IMG/VR virus record: IMGVR_UViG_3300045912_000713
Location: 1 to 37,858 of that record
Length of the DNA: 37,858 nucleotides
Reading direction: 5' to 3' (one strand)
Origin: a virus
Position numbers and translations under genes: made by a program. The notes beneath the pieces are model-generated. The model saw only the letters and a program-made list of their open reading frames with translations. It made no database searches and was not told the origin of the DNA. Below are positions 6,568-26,933 of this stretch, piece after piece. The stretch's first letter is position 1, and the number at the start of each line of letters is the position of its first letter.

Positions 6568-8303
6568 CAGCGCACCCCCACCCGCTGGATGCCGTAGCCC
6601 GCGCCCATCAGCCGGTCGAGCGACCCGTCGGCCACCATCGCCGCCACCTCGGCCCGCACCAGCACCTGCACCAGCCGCCGGCCGTCGGGCCCGCGCGTCT
6701 CGCGCGTCTCGACCGGCGGCGCGCCGGCGCCGCGCTGGTCGATGATCTGCACCACCGTGCCGCCCATCGCCTTCATCTGCTCGGGCGTGAACACGCCCTC
6801 GCCGGCCTTCAGGATGGCCGGCACCTCGCCCGCGCCGACGAAGCCGCCCCGGTGCAGCCGCGGCGCGTCGGCGAACAGGGCGACCGGCACGGCCCGCGCG
6901 GCGCCGCCCTCGCGTCCGACAATGCCGCCGGTGTGGAACGGGAACGCGCTCACCGGGATGCCGGCGTCGATCGCCGTCACGGGGCCGAGCGACGGCCGGA
7001 ACAGCGACGCCAGGCCGGTGCGCAGCAGCACGGCCGCCGCCTGGGTCAGCGGCCCGGTGATCTGCTCGTGGATCAGCTTCTCGATCACGCCCGAGGCGAG
7101 GCGCTGGATCAGGCCGACGACCCCGCCGTCCAGCGCCCGCAGCCCCACCAGCGCCTCGGCCATCGCCCGCGCCGCGTCGCGGCCGAAGCCCTGCACGGAG
7201 TCGGCCAGGCGGTCGAAGGCCGCCTCCATGCCGCCCAGCCCCTGCGCCGTGCCGTCGGCGGCCGCCTGGGCGCGCTCCAGCTCCTCGCGGGCGCGCGCGA
7301 TCCCGCGCGCGAAGGTCTCCTGGCCGATGAAGCCGCCGCGCGCCAGCTCCTCGAGCCGCCGCACGGTGTCGAGGTAGCGCTCCAGCGGCGTGCGCAGCTC
7401 GGCCTCCAGCCGCCGCGCCTCCTCCTTCAGCCGCGCGAAGGGGTCGAGCGCGCGCTCGGCCCGCGCCGCCGCGGCCGCGCCGCCGCGCTGCGCCACCTCG
7501 TCGGCCGACGGGCTCAGCACCGCCTCGATCGCGCGGTCGATCCGCGCCAGCGCCGCCTCGGCCTCGGCGATCGAGCCTTCGATCGCCCGCAGATCCTCGG
7601 CTCGCGCCTCGGCCGCGCTGCGCGCCACGCTCTGGCGCAGCGTGCCGCGCCGCGCCGGCCGGCTGGCCAGGTCCTCCGCCGTGATCCGCCCGATCCGCGC
7701 GAACTCCAGGTCCTGGCGCAGCGCCGCCAGCGTCTCCTCCTGGATGGCGCGGGCGTTGCGCAGCGTCTCCTCGGCCTCCTGGCGCTTCGCCTCGGCCGCG
7801 CGCCGGGCCGCCGCCTCGGCGGTGATCATCCGCCGCTCGGCGTATTCCAGCGCCTCGGCGAGCTGCTCGTTCGCCGCGGCCGCCCCCTCCGTGCGGCCCC
7901 CGAACAGCAGCATCTGCGCCGCGATCACGCCGAGCTGCACCGCCAGCCCGGCGAAGCCGCCGGTCAGCGCCGCCGCCATCCGCCCGCCGGCGTTCGCCAC
8001 GCTGCCCAGGCTGCCCGGCAGCCCGCCGACCGTGGTCAGCACCTGGGTGCCGGCGGTCGCCACCGCGCGCAGCCGCGCCGCCACCAGGTCGAGCGGCGGG
8101 GCCGCCTGCGCCGCCGCCGCCTGCGCGCCCGCGCCGATCCGCCGCACCGCCGCCTCGGCCTGCACCGAGGCGCGCTCGACGCGCACGCCGTTGCGCTCCA
8201 TCTCGCGCGTGAACTGCTCGACCTGCCGGCTGGCGCCGACGATCTCGGTGCGCAGCGGCCGCCCGTCGGCGGTCAGCACCAGGCGGACGGTCAGGTCACT
8301 CAC
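6567..8303 (-). CDS. Tail tape measure protein
   Basis: 578 residues from GTG at 8303, overlapping the chaperone frame by 8 bp. N-terminal region with MERNGVRVERASVQAEAAVR; a hydrophobic segment near residues 115-137 (GGFAGLAVQLGVIAAQMLLF); long alanine/glutamate/arginine-rich helices to about 370; and the typical tape-measure C-terminus with FHTGGIVGREGG, LHRGGFVGAGEVPAILKAGE and GVFTPEQMKAMGG. It sets tail length and is ejected on infection. At the usual 1.5 angstrom per residue, 578 residues predicts a tail of roughly 85-90 nm, short for a siphovirus (inference). Position directly after the frameshifted chaperone is canonical. Confidence 0.9.
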   Translation of the reverse strand: MSDLTVRLVLTADGRPLRTEIVGASRQVEQFTREMERNGVRVERASVQAEAAVRRIGAGAQAAAAQAAPPLDLVAARLRAVATAGTQVLTTVGGLPGSLGSVANAGGRMAAALTGGFAGLAVQLGVIAAQMLLFGGRTEGAAAANEQLAEALEYAERRMITAEAAARRAAEAKRQEAEETLRNARAIQEETLAALRQDLEFARIGRITAEDLASRPARRGTLRQSVARSAAEARAEDLRAIEGSIAEAEAALARIDRAIEAVLSPSADEVAQRGGAAAAARAERALDPFARLKEEARRLEAELRTPLERYLDTVRRLEELARGGFIGQETFARGIARAREELERAQAAADGTAQGLGGMEAAFDRLADSVQGFGRDAARAMAEALVGLRALDGGVVGLIQRLASGVIEKLIHEQITGPLTQAAAVLLRTGLASLFRPSLGPVTAIDAGIPVSAFPFHTGGIVGREGGAARAVPVALFADAPRLHRGGFVGAGEVPAILKAGEGVFTPEQMKAMGGTVVQIIDQRGAGAPPVETRETRGPDGRRLVQVLVRAEVAAMVADGSLDRLMGAGYGIQRVGVR

Positions 8304-12695: not shown

Positions 12696-13079
12696 TCAGC
12701 CCTGGATCCGGCCCTGCGCGAGCAGGGCCGGGATGATGTCGCCCGGCGCCGCGCTCATCAGCGCGATCCCGACGATGCCGTTGTTGACGCCGGACGCCGG
12801 GGCGGCGGCGACCGCAAGGCCCGAGCCGTTGGTGGTGAGATAGTCGCCGCGGCTGATCGACCCGCCGGCGGTCACCTCGACGACGCCGGCGATCGCCACG
12901 TCGACGCGGTGGCCCTGCGCGGCGGTGCCGGGCTGCACCGACACGCCGATCGGCGTGTCGGTGACCGCGGTCGTGGCGACCACCTCGCCGTCAGCCGCGC
13001 CCAGCCTGACGATCTGCCGCTCAGCGACGCCGCCGGAGCCGGCAACGAAGTTCCTGATCAGGATGGGCGTCTGGCTCAT
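12696..13079 (-). CDS. Capsid decoration (cement) protein, DUF2190
   Basis: 127 residues, beta-rich, with the DUF2190 pattern: RNFVAGSGGVAERQIVRLG, PIGVSVQPGTAAQGHRVDVA, VTAGGSISRGDYLTTNGSG and GIVGIALMSAAPGDIIPALL. These proteins trimerise on the capsid surface and stabilise it. ATG 13079 overlaps the protease stop by 4 bp, so protease, cement and capsid are coupled. Confidence 0.85.
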   Translation of the reverse strand: MSQTPILIRNFVAGSGGVAERQIVRLGAADGEVVATTAVTDTPIGVSVQPGTAAQGHRVDVAIAGVVEVTAGGSISRGDYLTTNGSGLAVAAAPASGVNNGIVGIALMSAAPGDIIPALLAQGRIQG

Positions 13080-13549
13080 GCGTCCCTCTCTCCGGTGACG
13101 AGGCGTACCGCCTCGCGGAAGGTGATGGTCTGCCCGGCATCGGCGCGCTTCTTCACCAGCGCGTCGGCGGCGGCCTCGATCGAGCGCCGGTCGGCCGGGT
13201 CAGCCGCCCGCACCCCGTCCGCGCCGGCGTGCTCGGCGAAGCTCACGCGCTGCGGCAGCCTGCCGAGCAGCGCGCGCAGCGCGTCGCGCGGCGTCACGCT
13301 GCCGGCCTCGGCGAACTCGACCGTCGCGGTCGCGTCGAGCTGGCTCAGCAGCGACGCCGCCAGCGGCTTCAGCTCGACCGGCAGGCGCGCCTCGCGCACC
13401 AGCCCCTCGACGAACTGAGCGTCCTCGGCCTCGCGCCGCGCGCGCTCGGCGGCGGCGAGCCGCTGCTCGCGCGCGGCGGCCTCGGCCTCGCGGGCCGCGA
13501 GCGCCTGCTCGCGCTCGGCGAACTCCGCCGAGCGATCGGGGTCCGGCAT
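13076..13549 (-). CDS. Nested scaffold protein (Mu gpZ-like), in-frame internal start
   Basis: Inside the protease gene, the ATG at 13549 is preceded by AAGAAGGAGACGGCG, a strong ribosome binding site at proper distance. Starting here gives a 157-residue protein, MPDPDRSAEFAEREQALAAR and on, which is the scaffold domain alone. Mu makes its scaffold gpZ the same way, from an internal in-frame start in gene I. The reading frame and SD are seen directly; the product is inferred. Confidence 0.65.
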   Translation of the reverse strand: MPDPDRSAEFAEREQALAAREAEAAAREQRLAAAERARREAEDAQFVEGLVREARLPVELKPLAASLLSQLDATATVEFAEAGSVTPRDALRALLGRLPQRVSFAEHAGADGVRAADPADRRSIEAAADALVKKRADAGQTITFREAVRLVTGERDA

Positions 13550-14242
13550 CGCCGTCTCCTTCTTCGTTTCGTCCTCGGCCGCGGCGGCGGGCGAGGGCTG
13601 GGGTGAGGGGGACTCGCTGAACGCGGCGGCCGCGGGCGCCGGCGTCTCGGCGATCGCGTCGATCTCGGCGGCGGGCAGCGCGCGGTCGGCCGCCTCGGCG
13701 CCGAACTGCGTCAGGATCAGCTCGCGCAGGCCGCGGAACAGCCGCGCCGCGAGCGACAGCGACCAGCTCTCGGCGAACTCGACCACGCCCTCGTCGCCGC
13801 CCGCGAACCGGACCGGCGCCAGGCCCTTCACGGCCGGCGGCTGCGCGCCCAGGAAGCCAACGTGGCGCAGGTACCAGCCGCCCTTCGCCGGGTTGCCCGG
13901 CGCCTCGGGGCCGTAGAGCGCGATCGAGACCTTCTTGAACCGGCCCTCGCGCACCAGCTCGGCGAACCGCGGCTCGACCTGCCGCGGCACCGCGCGCAGC
14001 GTGCCGCCATCCGCCTGCAGGCGCTCGATCCAGCCATAGGCCGGGGCGTCGTCGGCGGGGTGGCCGACCACGATCGGCGCCTCGTGCAGTCCGGGGTCGT
14101 AGCTCGCGGCGATCGCCGCGAGGTCCGCCTCGGTGATCGTCACGCGGCGGCCCGAGGCGTCGACATGCGTGCCGGCCCGGAACACCTCGATCGGTGCCGG
14201 CCGGCCGGTCGCGTCAGGATCGGTGTTGCGCGCGGGTGCCAT
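13076..14242 (-). CDS. Capsid maturation protease with scaffold domain (Mu gpI-like)
   Basis: 388 residues from ATG 14242 (GTG 14251 would add three). N-terminal protease domain: PIEVFRAGTHVDASGRRVTI, LHEAPIVVGHPADDAPAYGW, FKKVSIALYG and GWYLRHVGFLGAQPPAVKGL, characteristic of the Mu I protease group. From about residue 232 a charged helical region (REQALAAREAEAAAREQRL) is the scaffold domain, and it has its own internal start (see 13076-13549). A Pro-rich linker SPSPQPSP between the two is encoded by a host-like repeat. A Mor-type promoter lies directly upstream; if its -10 is correct, the mRNA would begin at or just before this ATG. Confidence 0.87.
   Translation of the reverse strand: MAPARNTDPDATGRPAPIEVFRAGTHVDASGRRVTITEADLAAIAASYDPGLHEAPIVVGHPADDAPAYGWIERLQADGGTLRAVPRQVEPRFAELVREGRFKKVSIALYGPEAPGNPAKGGWYLRHVGFLGAQPPAVKGLAPVRFAGGDEGVVEFAESWSLSLAARLFRGLRELILTQFGAEAADRALPAAEIDAIAETPAPAAAAFSESPSPQPSPAAAAEDETKKETAMPDPDRSAEFAEREQALAAREAEAAAREQRLAAAERARREAEDAQFVEGLVREARLPVELKPLAASLLSQLDATATVEFAEAGSVTPRDALRALLGRLPQRVSFAEHAGADGVRAADPADRRSIEAAADALVKKRADAGQTITFREAVRLVTGERDA
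13591..13613. repeat. Host-like REP fragment inside the protease gene
   Basis: Contains GAGGGCTGGGGTGAGGG (13593-13609), identical to 17 bp in the portal gene (17219-17235). On the coding strand it gives SPQPSP. This sequence type is common as dispersed palindromic repeats in Proteobacteria and here forms an in-frame linker. Confidence 0.6.
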
Positions 14243-14249
14243 CGGAGGC

Positions 14250-14296
14250 ACCCTAGGGATGCCGCGCCGGCGGGCTCAGGCTGACGCATTTCAGCC
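14250..14296 (-). promoter_or_regulatory. Candidate Mor-activated late promoter for the capsid-tail operon
   Basis: A dyad GGCTGA-N6-TCAGCC (14279-14296) lies just before the protease gene. Counted on the minus strand, 23 bases separate it from a -10-like TAGGGT (14255-14250). The same dyad, with the same 23-bp gap to CATGGT, precedes the first late operon at 26887-26933; over 24 bases including flanks the two differ at two positions. In Mu, the Mor footprint also ends about 23 bp before the -10, and no -35 is needed. Mu likewise has a late promoter just before gene I. Confidence 0.62.
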
Positions 14297-14314: not shown

Positions 14315-14343
14315 TTGGCGCCAGCGCGCGGGTCGGCTACGCT
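14315..14343 (+). promoter_or_regulatory. Candidate promoter of the + strand cassette
   Basis: TTGGCG (14315-14320) and TACGCT (14338-14343) are 17 bp apart, a fair sigma-70-like match in this GC-rich DNA, on the opposite strand to the phage late genes. It lies back to back with the late promoter. A strong ribosome site AAGGAGG (14386-14392) stands 8 bp before the first cassette ATG. Confidence 0.5.
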
Positions 14344-14400
14344 TCATAAACGGATCGCGGGCATGGGGCCCGGATCGACGAGGTCAAGGAGGACCTGACG

Positions 14401-14766
14401 ATGACGAGCGCACGTTTCACCATCGATGCGGCCGCCGAGATCTTCGCCGCGCGGATGCTCAGCCTGGGCTACGAGATAGCGGCGGGAGGCGCGCACGAGA
14501 GCGGCAGCCGCTACGTCACCGTCCGCTTCGTGGTCGGCCAGAGCGAGGTCGAGTGCATCGACGGTTCGATGATCGCGGTCGAGGACACCGAGACCATCAA
14601 GGTTCGGTTCAGCGATCACGAGGCCCGATATGAGCGGGATCTCGACGTGGCAGTGCTGCGCTTCCACGACAGTGCGCACGTGGGCGTCGATGCGCCCGGC
14701 GACCTGGACACCGTTGTCGAGCGCGCGCGCGCGCTGATCCGCCGCCGCGTGGAGGACGCACGATGA
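14401..14766 (+). CDS. Cassette gene 1, unknown 121-residue protein (moron-like)
   Basis: 121 residues on the strand opposite the late genes, with a good promoter candidate and SD. Predicted mixed alpha/beta: helix AAAEIFAARMLSLGYEIA, strands RYVTVRFVV and SEVECIDGSMIAVED, ending in a basic helix VERARALIRRRVEDAR. No signal peptide or membrane segment. I do not recognise the family. It overlaps the next gene by ATGA, so the three cassette genes are one operon. Its own control signals suggest expression in the lysogen. Confidence 0.7.
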   Translation: MTSARFTIDAAAEIFAARMLSLGYEIAAGGAHESGSRYVTVRFVVGQSEVECIDGSMIAVEDTETIKVRFSDHEARYERDLDVAVLRFHDSAHVGVDAPGDLDTVVERARALIRRRVEDAR

Positions 14767-15029
14767 GCCCGCGCGCGTTCACTTGGCTCGTGTGCCACGA
14801 TCGGCTTGGCGGCGAGGCCGTCTGCATCGACGGCCGCGACCAGACATGGATCGACCGCTGGATCGCGCGACGCGAGGAGGCGATCCCCGGGGCCTGGTGC
14901 GAGATCGTGCACGCCGCGCCGGGCCGCAACTGGGACGGTTCGCGGCTCAGTCGACGCCGCGCGGCCCAGCTCGAAATGGAGATCGGTCAACGGCTCTTGC
15001 GGCGCGAGCGACAGGAGCGACAGCAGTGA
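14763..15029 (+). CDS. Cassette gene 2, unknown 88-residue protein
   Basis: 88 residues, ATG in a 4-bp overlap with gene 1. Tryptophan-rich N-terminal part (FTWLVCHDRLGGEAVCIDGR, WIDRWIARREEAIPGAWCEI) and a very basic C-terminal helix (RRRAAQLEMEIGQRLLRRER), which could bind nucleic acid. Three cysteines (11, 21 and 46) are spaced irregularly. No family recognised. Confidence 0.65.
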   Translation: MSPRAFTWLVCHDRLGGEAVCIDGRDQTWIDRWIARREEAIPGAWCEIVHAAPGRNWDGSRLSRRRAAQLEMEIGQRLLRRERQERQQ

Positions 15030-15481
15030 CCCCCGACGCCCTCGCCGGCGCGCTGCGCGAGCTCTGTCCCGGCCAGGGGTGGCTCGCGCGCGGCGCGGCG
15101 CTGCTCGGCGTCAACCCGCGCGGCCTGCGCCAGATGCTCGCCGGCGACCGCGCGGTGCCGCCCGGCGTCGCGCAGCAGCTCGGCGCGCTGCTGACCGGTG
15201 GCGACCGCTGGGTGCTCGGCGACGGCGACCGCAGCGGCGGCGCCTGGCTGATCCACCTGCGCGCGCCGCGCTTCGCTGCGCGCCTGGTGGACGAGGACGA
15301 CCCCGACACGCTGCGCGGCGCCGACACGCTCGCCGGGCTCACGCTCTCGCTCGGTGGCGCGCTTGTGCTCTGCCAGATCGTCTGGATCGACCCGCCGCCC
15401 GCCGATCTTCAGCCTCTGCTCGCGGAGGCCGCCGAGGCGGTCGGGCGGCTGCTCGCCGGCGAGGCCCTGGGAAGCCCGTAG
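15026..15481 (+). CDS. Cassette gene 3, HTH-like protein
   Basis: 151 residues from GTG 15026, overlapping gene 2 by GTGA; the longer frame from 14783 overlaps gene 2 almost fully and is rejected. Residues about 19-57 (WLARGAALLGVNPRGLRQML, then VPPGVAQQLGALL) resemble a Cro/XRE helix-turn-helix. The rest is acidic, with a hydrophobic part (LTLSLGGALVLCQIVWI). It may regulate the cassette or act as the antitoxin-like partner of gene 1 or 2; that is only a suggestion. Confidence 0.68.
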   Translation: MTPDALAGALRELCPGQGWLARGAALLGVNPRGLRQMLAGDRAVPPGVAQQLGALLTGGDRWVLGDGDRSGGAWLIHLRAPRFAARLVDEDDPDTLRGADTLAGLTLSLGGALVLCQIVWIDPPPADLQPLLAEAAEAVGRLLAGEALGSP

Positions 15482-15538
15482 AGCGGGGTGTGCGGCGCGC
15501 CGCACCCGAGACACCCCCCGCGGCTCAGACCCCGCTCT
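15480..15538. terminator. Bidirectional terminator between cassette and MuF gene
   Basis: An outer stem AGAGCGGGGT (15480-15489) pairs with ACCCCGCTCT (15529-15538), and inside is a perfect 16-bp palindrome GTGCGGCGCGCCGCAC (15490-15505). The + strand continues with TTA after the outer stem. It starts at the stop of cassette gene 3 and lies 31 bp from the end of the MuF gene, so it could stop both converging transcripts and isolate the cassette from late transcription. Confidence 0.7.
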
Positions 15539-15569: not shown

Positions 15570-16931
15570 TCAGACGCCCCCCGAGATCACCCGGTAGCGG
15601 GAGGCGTCGGCGAGCGCGGCGAGCTCGACCGCCTCGGCGGTGACGACGCCGGCGCCCCGCCCCGCCGCGTCGGCGCGCAGCACGATCCGCCGCCGCCGCC
15701 GCTCCTCGGCGTCGAGCGGCACCAGCACGTGCAGCAGCGCGCCCGTCAGCAGGTCCAGCAGCAGCGCCTCGCGCGCCCCGATCAGCGCCGGCAGCCGCAG
15801 CAGGTCGGCGGCCGGCAGCGGCGCCCCGCGCGCCACCGCCACGTCGCGGTGCAGGTGCAGCAGCCGGTCCTCGGTGAGCGTGATCGCCGCCGCGGCGGGT
15901 TCCCGCCCGGCTTCCCGCAGCGCCGCGACCTCGGCCTGGGTGAGCGCGCCGATCACGCGCGCCGTCCCGGCGGCGCGGCCGGCCGCGAGCACGGTCGCGG
16001 CCCACGCGGCGAACTCGGCCTCGGCGGCCGCGCGCACCGCCGGCGGCAGCAGCGCCGCCGCCGCCGCGCCGAGATCGGCATCGGCGCGCAGCAGCGCCTC
16101 GGCCGCGTGGCGCGCGGCCTGGCGCGCCTGCTCGAAGGCCGGGGTCGCCGCGGCCAAGAGCGACAGCGGCGGCAGTTCGGGCGGCGGCGCGATCTGCCGC
16201 GGCGTCAGCGGCGCGTCCCAGCCCGGCAGCGTCGCCGCGCCGCGCGCGCGCAGCTCCGCCTCGCCGACATTGTGGTCCCAGCCCTCGTCGATGCCGGGCG
16301 GCAGCTCGACGATCCGGTTGCCGTCGGCCGTGCGCACCGAGCGCGGCAGCCGCCCCGCGCTCGGCGGCGGATCGGTCACCGCCCAGCCGCGCCGTTCCAG
16401 GTCGGCCGCGCTCAGGCTGACCACCGTGCAGCGGCAGCCCCAGCCGTTGGGCGGGTAGTGCGTGCGCCAGAACTCATGGTCCACGGGCAGGATCGTGCCG
16501 TGCCAGGCGCGGTGCTGCGGCCGGGTGCGGTTGTCCAGCACCGCCGTGTAGCGCAGGTATGGCCGGACGGCCTTCAGCCGCTGGATCTGCGCCCAGCGCC
16601 CGGCCGCGTAGCTGGTGCGCAGGTTCGTCTCGAAGATCACGCGCGAGCGCCAGCCGAACCGGCCGCGCAGCGTGATCCCGGTGCGCTCGATGATGCCGCG
16701 GAGGTCGCGGCGGAACTCGGCGAGCGTCGTGCCCTCGGCCAGCGCCTTGTCCACGGCCACTCGGATCGACTGGAGCGCGGCGAGGTCGCGCACGCCGGCG
16801 ACCGCGAAGCCGGTGGTGTGCGCGGCCGCGTCGAGGTCGCGCCACGTGTCGGTCGGGACGTTGACCTTGCCGCGCAGCACCCGGATCGCCTCGTCGAACC
16901 GGACCGGCGCGCGCTCCGGCTCAGACGCCAT
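15570..16931 (-). CDS. MuF / SPP1 gp7-type head protein with C-terminal toxin-like domain
   Basis: 453 residues; start overlaps the portal gene by 11 bp. The MuF (phage head morphogenesis) domain spans about 40-210: LAALQSIRVAVDKALAEG, RVIFETNLRTSYAAGRWAQI, YTAVLDNRTRPQHRAWHG and THYPPNGWGCRCTVVSLS. After a variable Ala-rich middle, the last ~105 residues (ITLTEDRLLHLHRDVAVARG, LLRLPALIGAREALLLD, final SRYRVISGGV) look like the PBECR-type nuclease-like domains that end many MuF proteins. The MuF part sits with the portal at the head vertex and is packaged; the C-terminal domain could be delivered on infection. The second role is inferred. Confidence 0.85.
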   Translation of the reverse strand: MASEPERAPVRFDEAIRVLRGKVNVPTDTWRDLDAAAHTTGFAVAGVRDLAALQSIRVAVDKALAEGTTLAEFRRDLRGIIERTGITLRGRFGWRSRVIFETNLRTSYAAGRWAQIQRLKAVRPYLRYTAVLDNRTRPQHRAWHGTILPVDHEFWRTHYPPNGWGCRCTVVSLSAADLERRGWAVTDPPPSAGRLPRSVRTADGNRIVELPPGIDEGWDHNVGEAELRARGAATLPGWDAPLTPRQIAPPPELPPLSLLAAATPAFEQARQAARHAAEALLRADADLGAAAAALLPPAVRAAAEAEFAAWAATVLAAGRAAGTARVIGALTQAEVAALREAGREPAAAAITLTEDRLLHLHRDVAVARGAPLPAADLLRLPALIGAREALLLDLLTGALLHVLVPLDAEERRRRRIVLRADAAGRGAGVVTAEAVELAALADASRYRVISGGV

Positions 16932-26886: not shown

Positions 26887-26933
26887 ACCATGCCCCCCGC
26901 GTCGCAGTCACCTCAGGCTGACGATTTTCAGCC
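26887..26933 (-). promoter_or_regulatory. Candidate Mor-activated late promoter for the head operon
   Basis: Dyad GGCTGA-N6-TCAGCC (26916-26933), then 23 bp, then CATGGT (26892-26887) as -10. It shares 22 of 24 bases with the dyad region before the protease gene and the same 23-bp spacing. It lies in the 100-bp gap between the mor operon and the first late gene, where Mu has its middle/late promoters. A weak hairpin (GGCC GCATCA GGCC) just upstream may end the mor transcript. Confidence 0.65.

Follow-up and report, generated by a model that had tools for sequence, protein, structure and literature searches.

A three-gene cassette opposite the late genes of a Mu-like phage

The window, by which we mean the whole stretch of 37,858 nucleotides analysed here, is a complete-looking 37.9-kb virus record from IMG/VR that represents a Mu/B3-like transposable phage, with family matches to Mu transposase, MuB, Portal_Mu, MuF, and a CI-like repressor. 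Its GC content is 74%, and it contains many long spurious ORFs. In genome comparison it stands closest to a prophage from an Elioraea MAG (portal 64% identical), which, judging from sequence, places the host probably in or near the Acetobacteraceae. The gap between the MuF gene and the protease/scaffold gene, the latter lacking a Pfam match, holds three small genes, g1, g2, and g3, on the opposite strand (Table 1). A preliminary description had reported such a set of overlapping opposite-strand genes with ATGA and GTGA junctions and a strong Shine-Dalgarno sequence, and the ORFs and their coordinates agree with it: g2 starts within g1 via ATGA and g3 within g2 via GTGA, and the three starts are preceded by AAGGAG (g1), GGAGG (g2), and AGGAG (g3).

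Table 1. Features of the cassette and its flanks, in window coordinates, followed by cargo found in related phages, in the coordinates of those loci
Feature	Position	Strand	Remarks
Protease/scaffold gene (flank)	13076-14251	-	homologues at same position in relatives; named by synteny
Dyad GGCTGA-N6-TCAGCC	14279-14296	.	putative Mu C-like activator site for the PI-like late promoter of the protease gene; marks left edge of cassette
Promoter candidate TTGGCG-N17-TACGCT	14315-14343	+	read by eye
Leader hairpin 1 / DNA dyad GATC-g-CGGGC-n5-GCCCG-GATC	14353-14376	+	same fold in L007 with one compensatory change; in R1
Leader hairpin 2 AGGTC-AAGGAG-GACCT	14381-14396	+	g1 Shine-Dalgarno in loop; in R1
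g1	14401-14766	+	121 aa, pI 5.0; no known family; candidate effector
g2	14763-15029	+	88 aa, pI 9.3; no known family; candidate effector
g3	15026-15481	+	151 aa, GTG start; HTH + AcrIIC2-like; candidate autorepressor
g3 N-terminal HTH (residues 1-57)	15026-15196	+	AF2 helices 3-13, 19-27, 31-38, 46-57
g3 C-terminal AcrIIC2-like domain (residues 60-143)	15203-15454	+	from profile and Foldseek
Nested palindrome in g3/MuF gap	15480-15538	.	possible bidirectional terminator; partly conserved in L026
MuF gene (flank)	15570-16931	-	PF04233, E 1.4e-22
Cargo, L079	13466-15133		DNA N6/N4 methylase, PF01555
Cargo, L069			576-aa protein, no family match
Cargo, L080			HTH gene
Cargo, L025		opposite	127-aa gene
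Cargo, L040			two small genes, the second HTH

Several lines of evidence support coding. Along all stretches of the three genes, the annotated frame has the best codon log-likelihood, and GC3 is 0.85 in g1, 0.84 in g2, and 0.94 in g3, compared with 0.92-0.99 in the late and transposition genes. The GC contents of g1 (0.675) and g2 (0.704) both fall below that of the phage core, and the composition of g3 matches it. At the same junction, the related loci L007 and L026 also carry the final 29 codons of g3 on the opposite strand. These codons are under purifying selection (dN/dS 0.18-0.22, with changes mainly at codon position 3), and the shared part is about 80% identical in protein sequence. 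Because g3 is core-like in composition and has left these remnants, it looks like an old resident of the site, to which g1 and g2 would have come later. A 39-aa ORF in L007 considered as the ancestral gene was ruled out by full-length g3 homologues and by the different deletion end in L026.

No relatives of g1 or g2 emerged from any search made, including profile and genome searches: g1 gave matches only at noise level in 299 Acetobacteraceae genomes, as did g2 in 200, and direct searches of the INPHARED phages and IMG/VR with g1 and g3 returned no match. The single-sequence AF2 model of g1 (pLDDT 39) is too poor for use. A gene found 5' of the g3 homologue in L151 and L177 was compared with g2 and rejected as its counterpart, the similarity being no better than chance. 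The earlier statement that none of the three genes could be named thus still holds for g1 and g2, and no longer for g3, which we describe below as an HTH protein with an AcrIIC2-like domain.

The preliminary description also gave the cassette a promoter of its own and a terminator with nested palindromes. A promoter candidate can be read by eye, as claimed; a consensus sigma-70 scan called none at 14315-14343. The palindrome is real, with outer 10-bp arms (15480-15489 and 15529-15538) enclosing an inner one (15490-15505); as a terminator it is only a candidate, for it lacks a U-run, the terminator scan passed over it, and its folding energy is ordinary for its composition (z about -1).

The junction carries varied cargo between two putative late transcription units

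The dyad at the left boundary of the cassette has just two copies in the window, one 5' of the protease gene and the other (26916-26933) 5' of the late operon. The same dyad lies 39-45 bp 5' of the protease gene in L006, L008, L009, L025, L027, L068, and L073, and 27 bp upstream of it in L080, and a second copy occurs several kilobases upstream in some of the longer loci. In phage Mu, the C protein activates the lys and I promoters (PMC4461284); by analogy, the copies are putative marks of two late promoters, in which case the cassette would sit exactly between two late transcription units. This apparent border would explain why Mu-like phages carry cargo at the junction.

In the closest relatives, the corresponding junction is free of a cassette, retains part of g3, or holds different cargo. 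MuF and protease are adjacent, 225-382 bp apart, in L006-L009, L027, L028, and L073, and L007 keeps the leader together with just the last 39 codons of g3. Among the 80 relatives in which both flanks were found, the space left between MuF or gpG and the protease gene varies from 0 to 5.7 kb and reaches at least 900 bp in eight. The cargo is diverse (Table 1) and includes, in the Elioraea MAG prophage (L068, about 13189-14088), what we take, by eye only, to be a DinD-like protein. The cassette is not part of the core, and these data support both a hot spot with varied cargo and the moron shape that the preliminary description saw in the three genes: they are absent at the junction in close relatives rather than fixed in all of them, and g1 and g2 fall below the core in GC and GC3. 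The likeness in composition is confined to these two genes and does not extend to g3, core-like and represented by remnants in L007 and L026.

In Pseudomonas Mu-like phages, the interval between protease/scaffold and gpG houses acr operons, which end in an HTH gene and have a promoter of their own (PMC4704812, PMC4378225), at a cargo site named RGP G (PMC4378225). By this analogy the site of the window cassette is equivalent to the acr-aca junction of those phages. The acr-aca operons of the P. aeruginosa JBD30 and D3112 group share with the cassette the position 5' of protease/scaffold, an HTH gene placed after small unrelated genes, a regulatory leader of their own, and varying cargo. They differ in that the window cassette runs on the opposite strand and gpG lies elsewhere in the genome, that no acr or aca homologue is known for g1 or g2, and that g3 has a large second domain. 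The gpG-like gene of the window (PF05069, 10571-11074) is found downstream of the capsid genes; in many relatives gpG stands between MuF and protease, and the clade of the window represents a change of gene order.

A structured leader is conserved among the operons

In L151/L174, L177, L198, L199, and L201, the g3-family gene stands behind one or two small, unrelated ORFs, and a dyad whose half-sites are TCCTA and (T)AGGA lies 5' of the operon in L151, L177, L198, L200, and L201. Dyads overlap the promoter or lie close to it in L177, L198, L201, L151, and L040, and are found in the leader in the window; known aca promoters have inverted repeats over the -35 and -10 elements (PMC9410906). The leaders of the family contain two hairpins between the promoter and the first start codon, the second with the Shine-Dalgarno sequence in or beside its loop. 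The leaders of the window and L007 show two compensatory changes, a comparison of two sequences for which the wider alignment carries the weight.

We built a covariance model (R1) from eight operon leaders and ran it over 30 loci. The model matches the window at 14354-14398, a training member, and its sole strong match outside the training set is the held-out L040 (7417-7461, E 0.0086), which ends just 5' of the ATG at 7463 of the first cassette gene, at the same genomic site, and is preceded by a perfect 22-bp dyad. The HTH protein of L040 (86 aa) has the HTH and lacks the AcrIIC2-like domain, which indicates that the leader goes with the HTH. A further 866 kb from 59 other loci, mostly cassette-free phage relatives, gave nothing at E<=0.5; 190 alphaproteobacterial genomes gave no match in a run that lacked a positive control; and in Rfam the leader belongs to no known family. 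In the R1 alignment, 83.6% of cells can pair compared with 71% after shuffling, and there are 16 two-sided changes compared with 5.8, a result reached in 0 of 500 shuffles and in none of the slid versions, every one of which was worse; these pair counts lean toward structure, since the alignment was fitted to the model. The folding energies of the individual leaders are ordinary for their composition, and the support is comparative.

The third gene combines an HTH with an AcrIIC2-like domain

Relatives of g3 surfaced only by the protein-family route. A full-length relative was found among 299 Elioraea-family genomes (E 2.4e-15, 37% identity), and iterated searching extended the family to seven members with an HTH, drawn from phage contigs and genomes. 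The preliminary description had suspected an HTH-like part in the third gene, and we find it in profile, model, and PDB comparisons alike: all seven members match phrog_3626 (E 0.0029 for the window, 3.6e-10 for the best of the family), the AF2 model has four helices there (Table 1), and profile A5 retrieves Aca2 and HigA-like proteins from the PDB at E about 0.001. The top PDB match of a two-sequence g3 profile is the HigA-like antidote 3cec (E 7e-4). Window g3 itself has no Pfam match, the cut-off of PF08965 (Aca2/YdiL) included.

The C-terminal domain has the core W..GD...H...PRF.AR...C..W.D across the seven members. With a seven-member profile (A8), the best of 177,635 PDB sequences is AcrIIC2, the inhibitor of type II-C Cas9 from Neisseria (E 5e-4), over nearly the whole AcrIIC2 domain; adding the standalone L202 and the chromosomal L203 (A9) improves this to E 1.3e-5, and a reversed-sequence version of A9 finds nothing at E<=1 in the PDB. 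L203 alone retrieves only AcrIIC2 (E 1.6e-4), and hhalign of the g3 family against AcrIIC2 gives P 3.7e-7. AcrIIC2 is also the top PDB match in Foldseek (E 3.5e-3), which adds weak further support, given that sequence is partly used in its scoring and that the AF2 model is modest (pLDDT 69; superposition on AcrIIC2 with TM 0.34-0.46 and rmsd 8.9). On these sequence comparisons we regard the C-terminal domain of g3 as homologous to AcrIIC2, and g3 as representing an undescribed phage family that joins an HTH to such a domain. No sequence or structural relative of AcrIIC2 was known when it was published (PMC6594998), and an HTH-AcrIIC2 fusion is not reported within the open-access literature that we searched. 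The g3 family thus provides the first AcrIIC2 relatives known to us, both phage and chromosomal, and makes the origin of this Cas9 inhibitor testable.

The domain covers about residues 18-106 of AcrIIC2, with the shared core H-x-x-x-PRF-x-AR; g3 differs in its N-terminal HTH and in lacking equivalents of E24 and D108. Cas9 inhibition by AcrIIC2 needs E17, E24, and D108, with E24A abolishing it and E17D tolerated (PMC6594998). In window g3, the equivalent of E17 is Asp66, in the GD motif, and that of E24 is Ala73, so that we do not file the protein as an AcrIIC2 by mechanism; the other six HTH members, L202, and L203 have Glu at this position. For D108 there is no clear acidic counterpart in the family and none in window g3. 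Among other known proteins, AcrIIA1, AcrIIA13-15, and AcrIF24 are likewise small phage proteins built of a DNA-binding HTH and a single further domain, but their second domain is unrelated to that of g3. Aca2/YdiL resembles g3 in its HTH, as a dimer-type regulator, and in standing at the end of the operon, but has a helical dimerisation domain in place of the AcrIIC2-like one.

Standalone relatives of the AcrIIC2-like domain occur in chromosomes (L203, 1495-1872, and L204), so the domain alone is no sign of anti-CRISPR activity. The gene adjoining them is presumably one for glycerol-3-phosphate dehydrogenase.

Interpretation of the cassette

We give a probability of roughly 0.5 to the reading that the cassette is an autoregulated counter-defence moron operon of the acr-aca type at the junction of the late units. 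It is suggested by the acr-equivalent site, the gene organisation, the conserved leader, the AcrIIC2-like domain, and the availability of a Cas9 target: Cas9 is encoded in 32 of 200 Acetobacteraceae genomes (16%, of type II-C size), and also in G620, a genome with a gene of the g3 family. Expression in the lysogen, autorepression, counter-defence, and a CRISPR target are what we infer from these features. The preliminary description had offered defence, exclusion, or host change as possible roles; exclusion and host change found no specific support, and the acr-aca-type reading is supported instead. Pointing against this reading are the orphan status of g1 and g2, Ala73, the siting of the dyads in the leader, the closest sequenced host relative (the Elioraea MAG, G001), which has no Cas9 match, the chromosomal L203 and L204, and the remnant in L007.

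Under the acr-aca-type reading, transcription would start near 14350 independently of the lytic late program, constitutively on entry and in the prophage, and the leader would fold into two hairpins, the second carrying the g1 ribosome-binding site. Made first, g1 and g2 would be effectors that disarm a host defence, for which CRISPR-Cas is the best bet given the site, the organisation, and the link to AcrIIC2. The last product, g3, would bind the leader dyads or hairpins as an HTH dimer (on DNA, RNA, or both) and lower expression of the operon; translational control by g3 is plausible because one hairpin bears the Shine-Dalgarno sequence; for comparison, Aca2 reportedly binds the hairpin at the ribosome-binding site of its own mRNA. 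This shut-down would matter since plus-strand transcription would collide with the late genes, and it would keep such transcripts out of these convergent genes. The AcrIIC2-like domain may serve in dimerisation or sensing, and some family members may bind Cas9.

We consider it rather unlikely that the cassette is a module of lysogeny or phage regulation without counter-defence, in which g3 would act like Cro or Aca2, also on other phage promoters, with g1 and g2 as partners. The family gene does occur in early phage operons (L151/L174 and relatives), and the HTH resembles those of Cro, HigA, and Aca2; in the window and L040, however, the gene occurs only at the cargo site, under a leader of its own, g1 and g2 are atypical in composition, and relatives live without the cassette.

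Less probable again is that g3 itself is a bifunctional anti-CRISPR, its HTH repressing the operon and its second domain blocking type II-C Cas9 via the arginine-rich bridge helix. Homology to AcrIIC2, the existence of HTH-Acr proteins (PMC10901769) with a layout like that of AcrIIA13-15 and AcrIF24, Asp66 at a position where AcrIIC2 tolerates E17D, Glu at the E24 position in the other members named above, and type II-C-sized Cas9 in 16% of Acetobacteraceae would all fit, but the window protein has Ala where E24A abolishes AcrIIC2 activity, D108 is not conserved, and the family includes chromosomal proteins without a phage link.

A toxin-antitoxin pair, with the small basic g2 as toxin and a HigA-like g3 as the antitoxin that represses the operon, seems improbable. 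The pI of g2 and the 3cec match would suit it, whereas neither g1 nor g2 matches a toxin family in Pfam, NCBIfam, or PADLOC, and the neighbors of the family vary from phage to phage, unlike a fixed pair. That the genes are chance antisense ORFs of a GC-rich genome full of spurious ones is hardly credible, as they lie in a gap between late genes rather than antisense to them, and codon statistics, purifying selection, full-length homologues, and the conserved leader refute it for g3, with codon statistics, Shine-Dalgarno sequences, and operon overlaps alone counting against it for g1 and g2.

It is possible, and we suggest it tentatively, that the phage regulators of the g3 family make up a new class, an HTH joined to an ancestral form of AcrIIC2, and bind the promoter dyads and the structured, Shine-Dalgarno-hiding leader of counter-defence operons; AcrIIC2 would then be derived from this domain, and any gene flanked by an R1 leader and a member of the g3 family would be a candidate anti-CRISPR or other anti-defence gene. 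The leader and the terminal HTH gene provide a means of finding new counter-defence genes among the phages of alphaproteobacteria, from which, to our knowledge, few are known. A candidate effector is a conserved unnamed gene (GD.I.FSE.VFGGSFR...) directly 5' of the g3-family genes in two different elements, L151 (1083-1469) and L177 (1088-1483). Finally, an Acetobacteraceae genome contains a frameshifted g3 remnant (L152, 1501-1694) adjoining a ParA/MipZ-like gene, which on its sequence may be the trace of a lost prophage.
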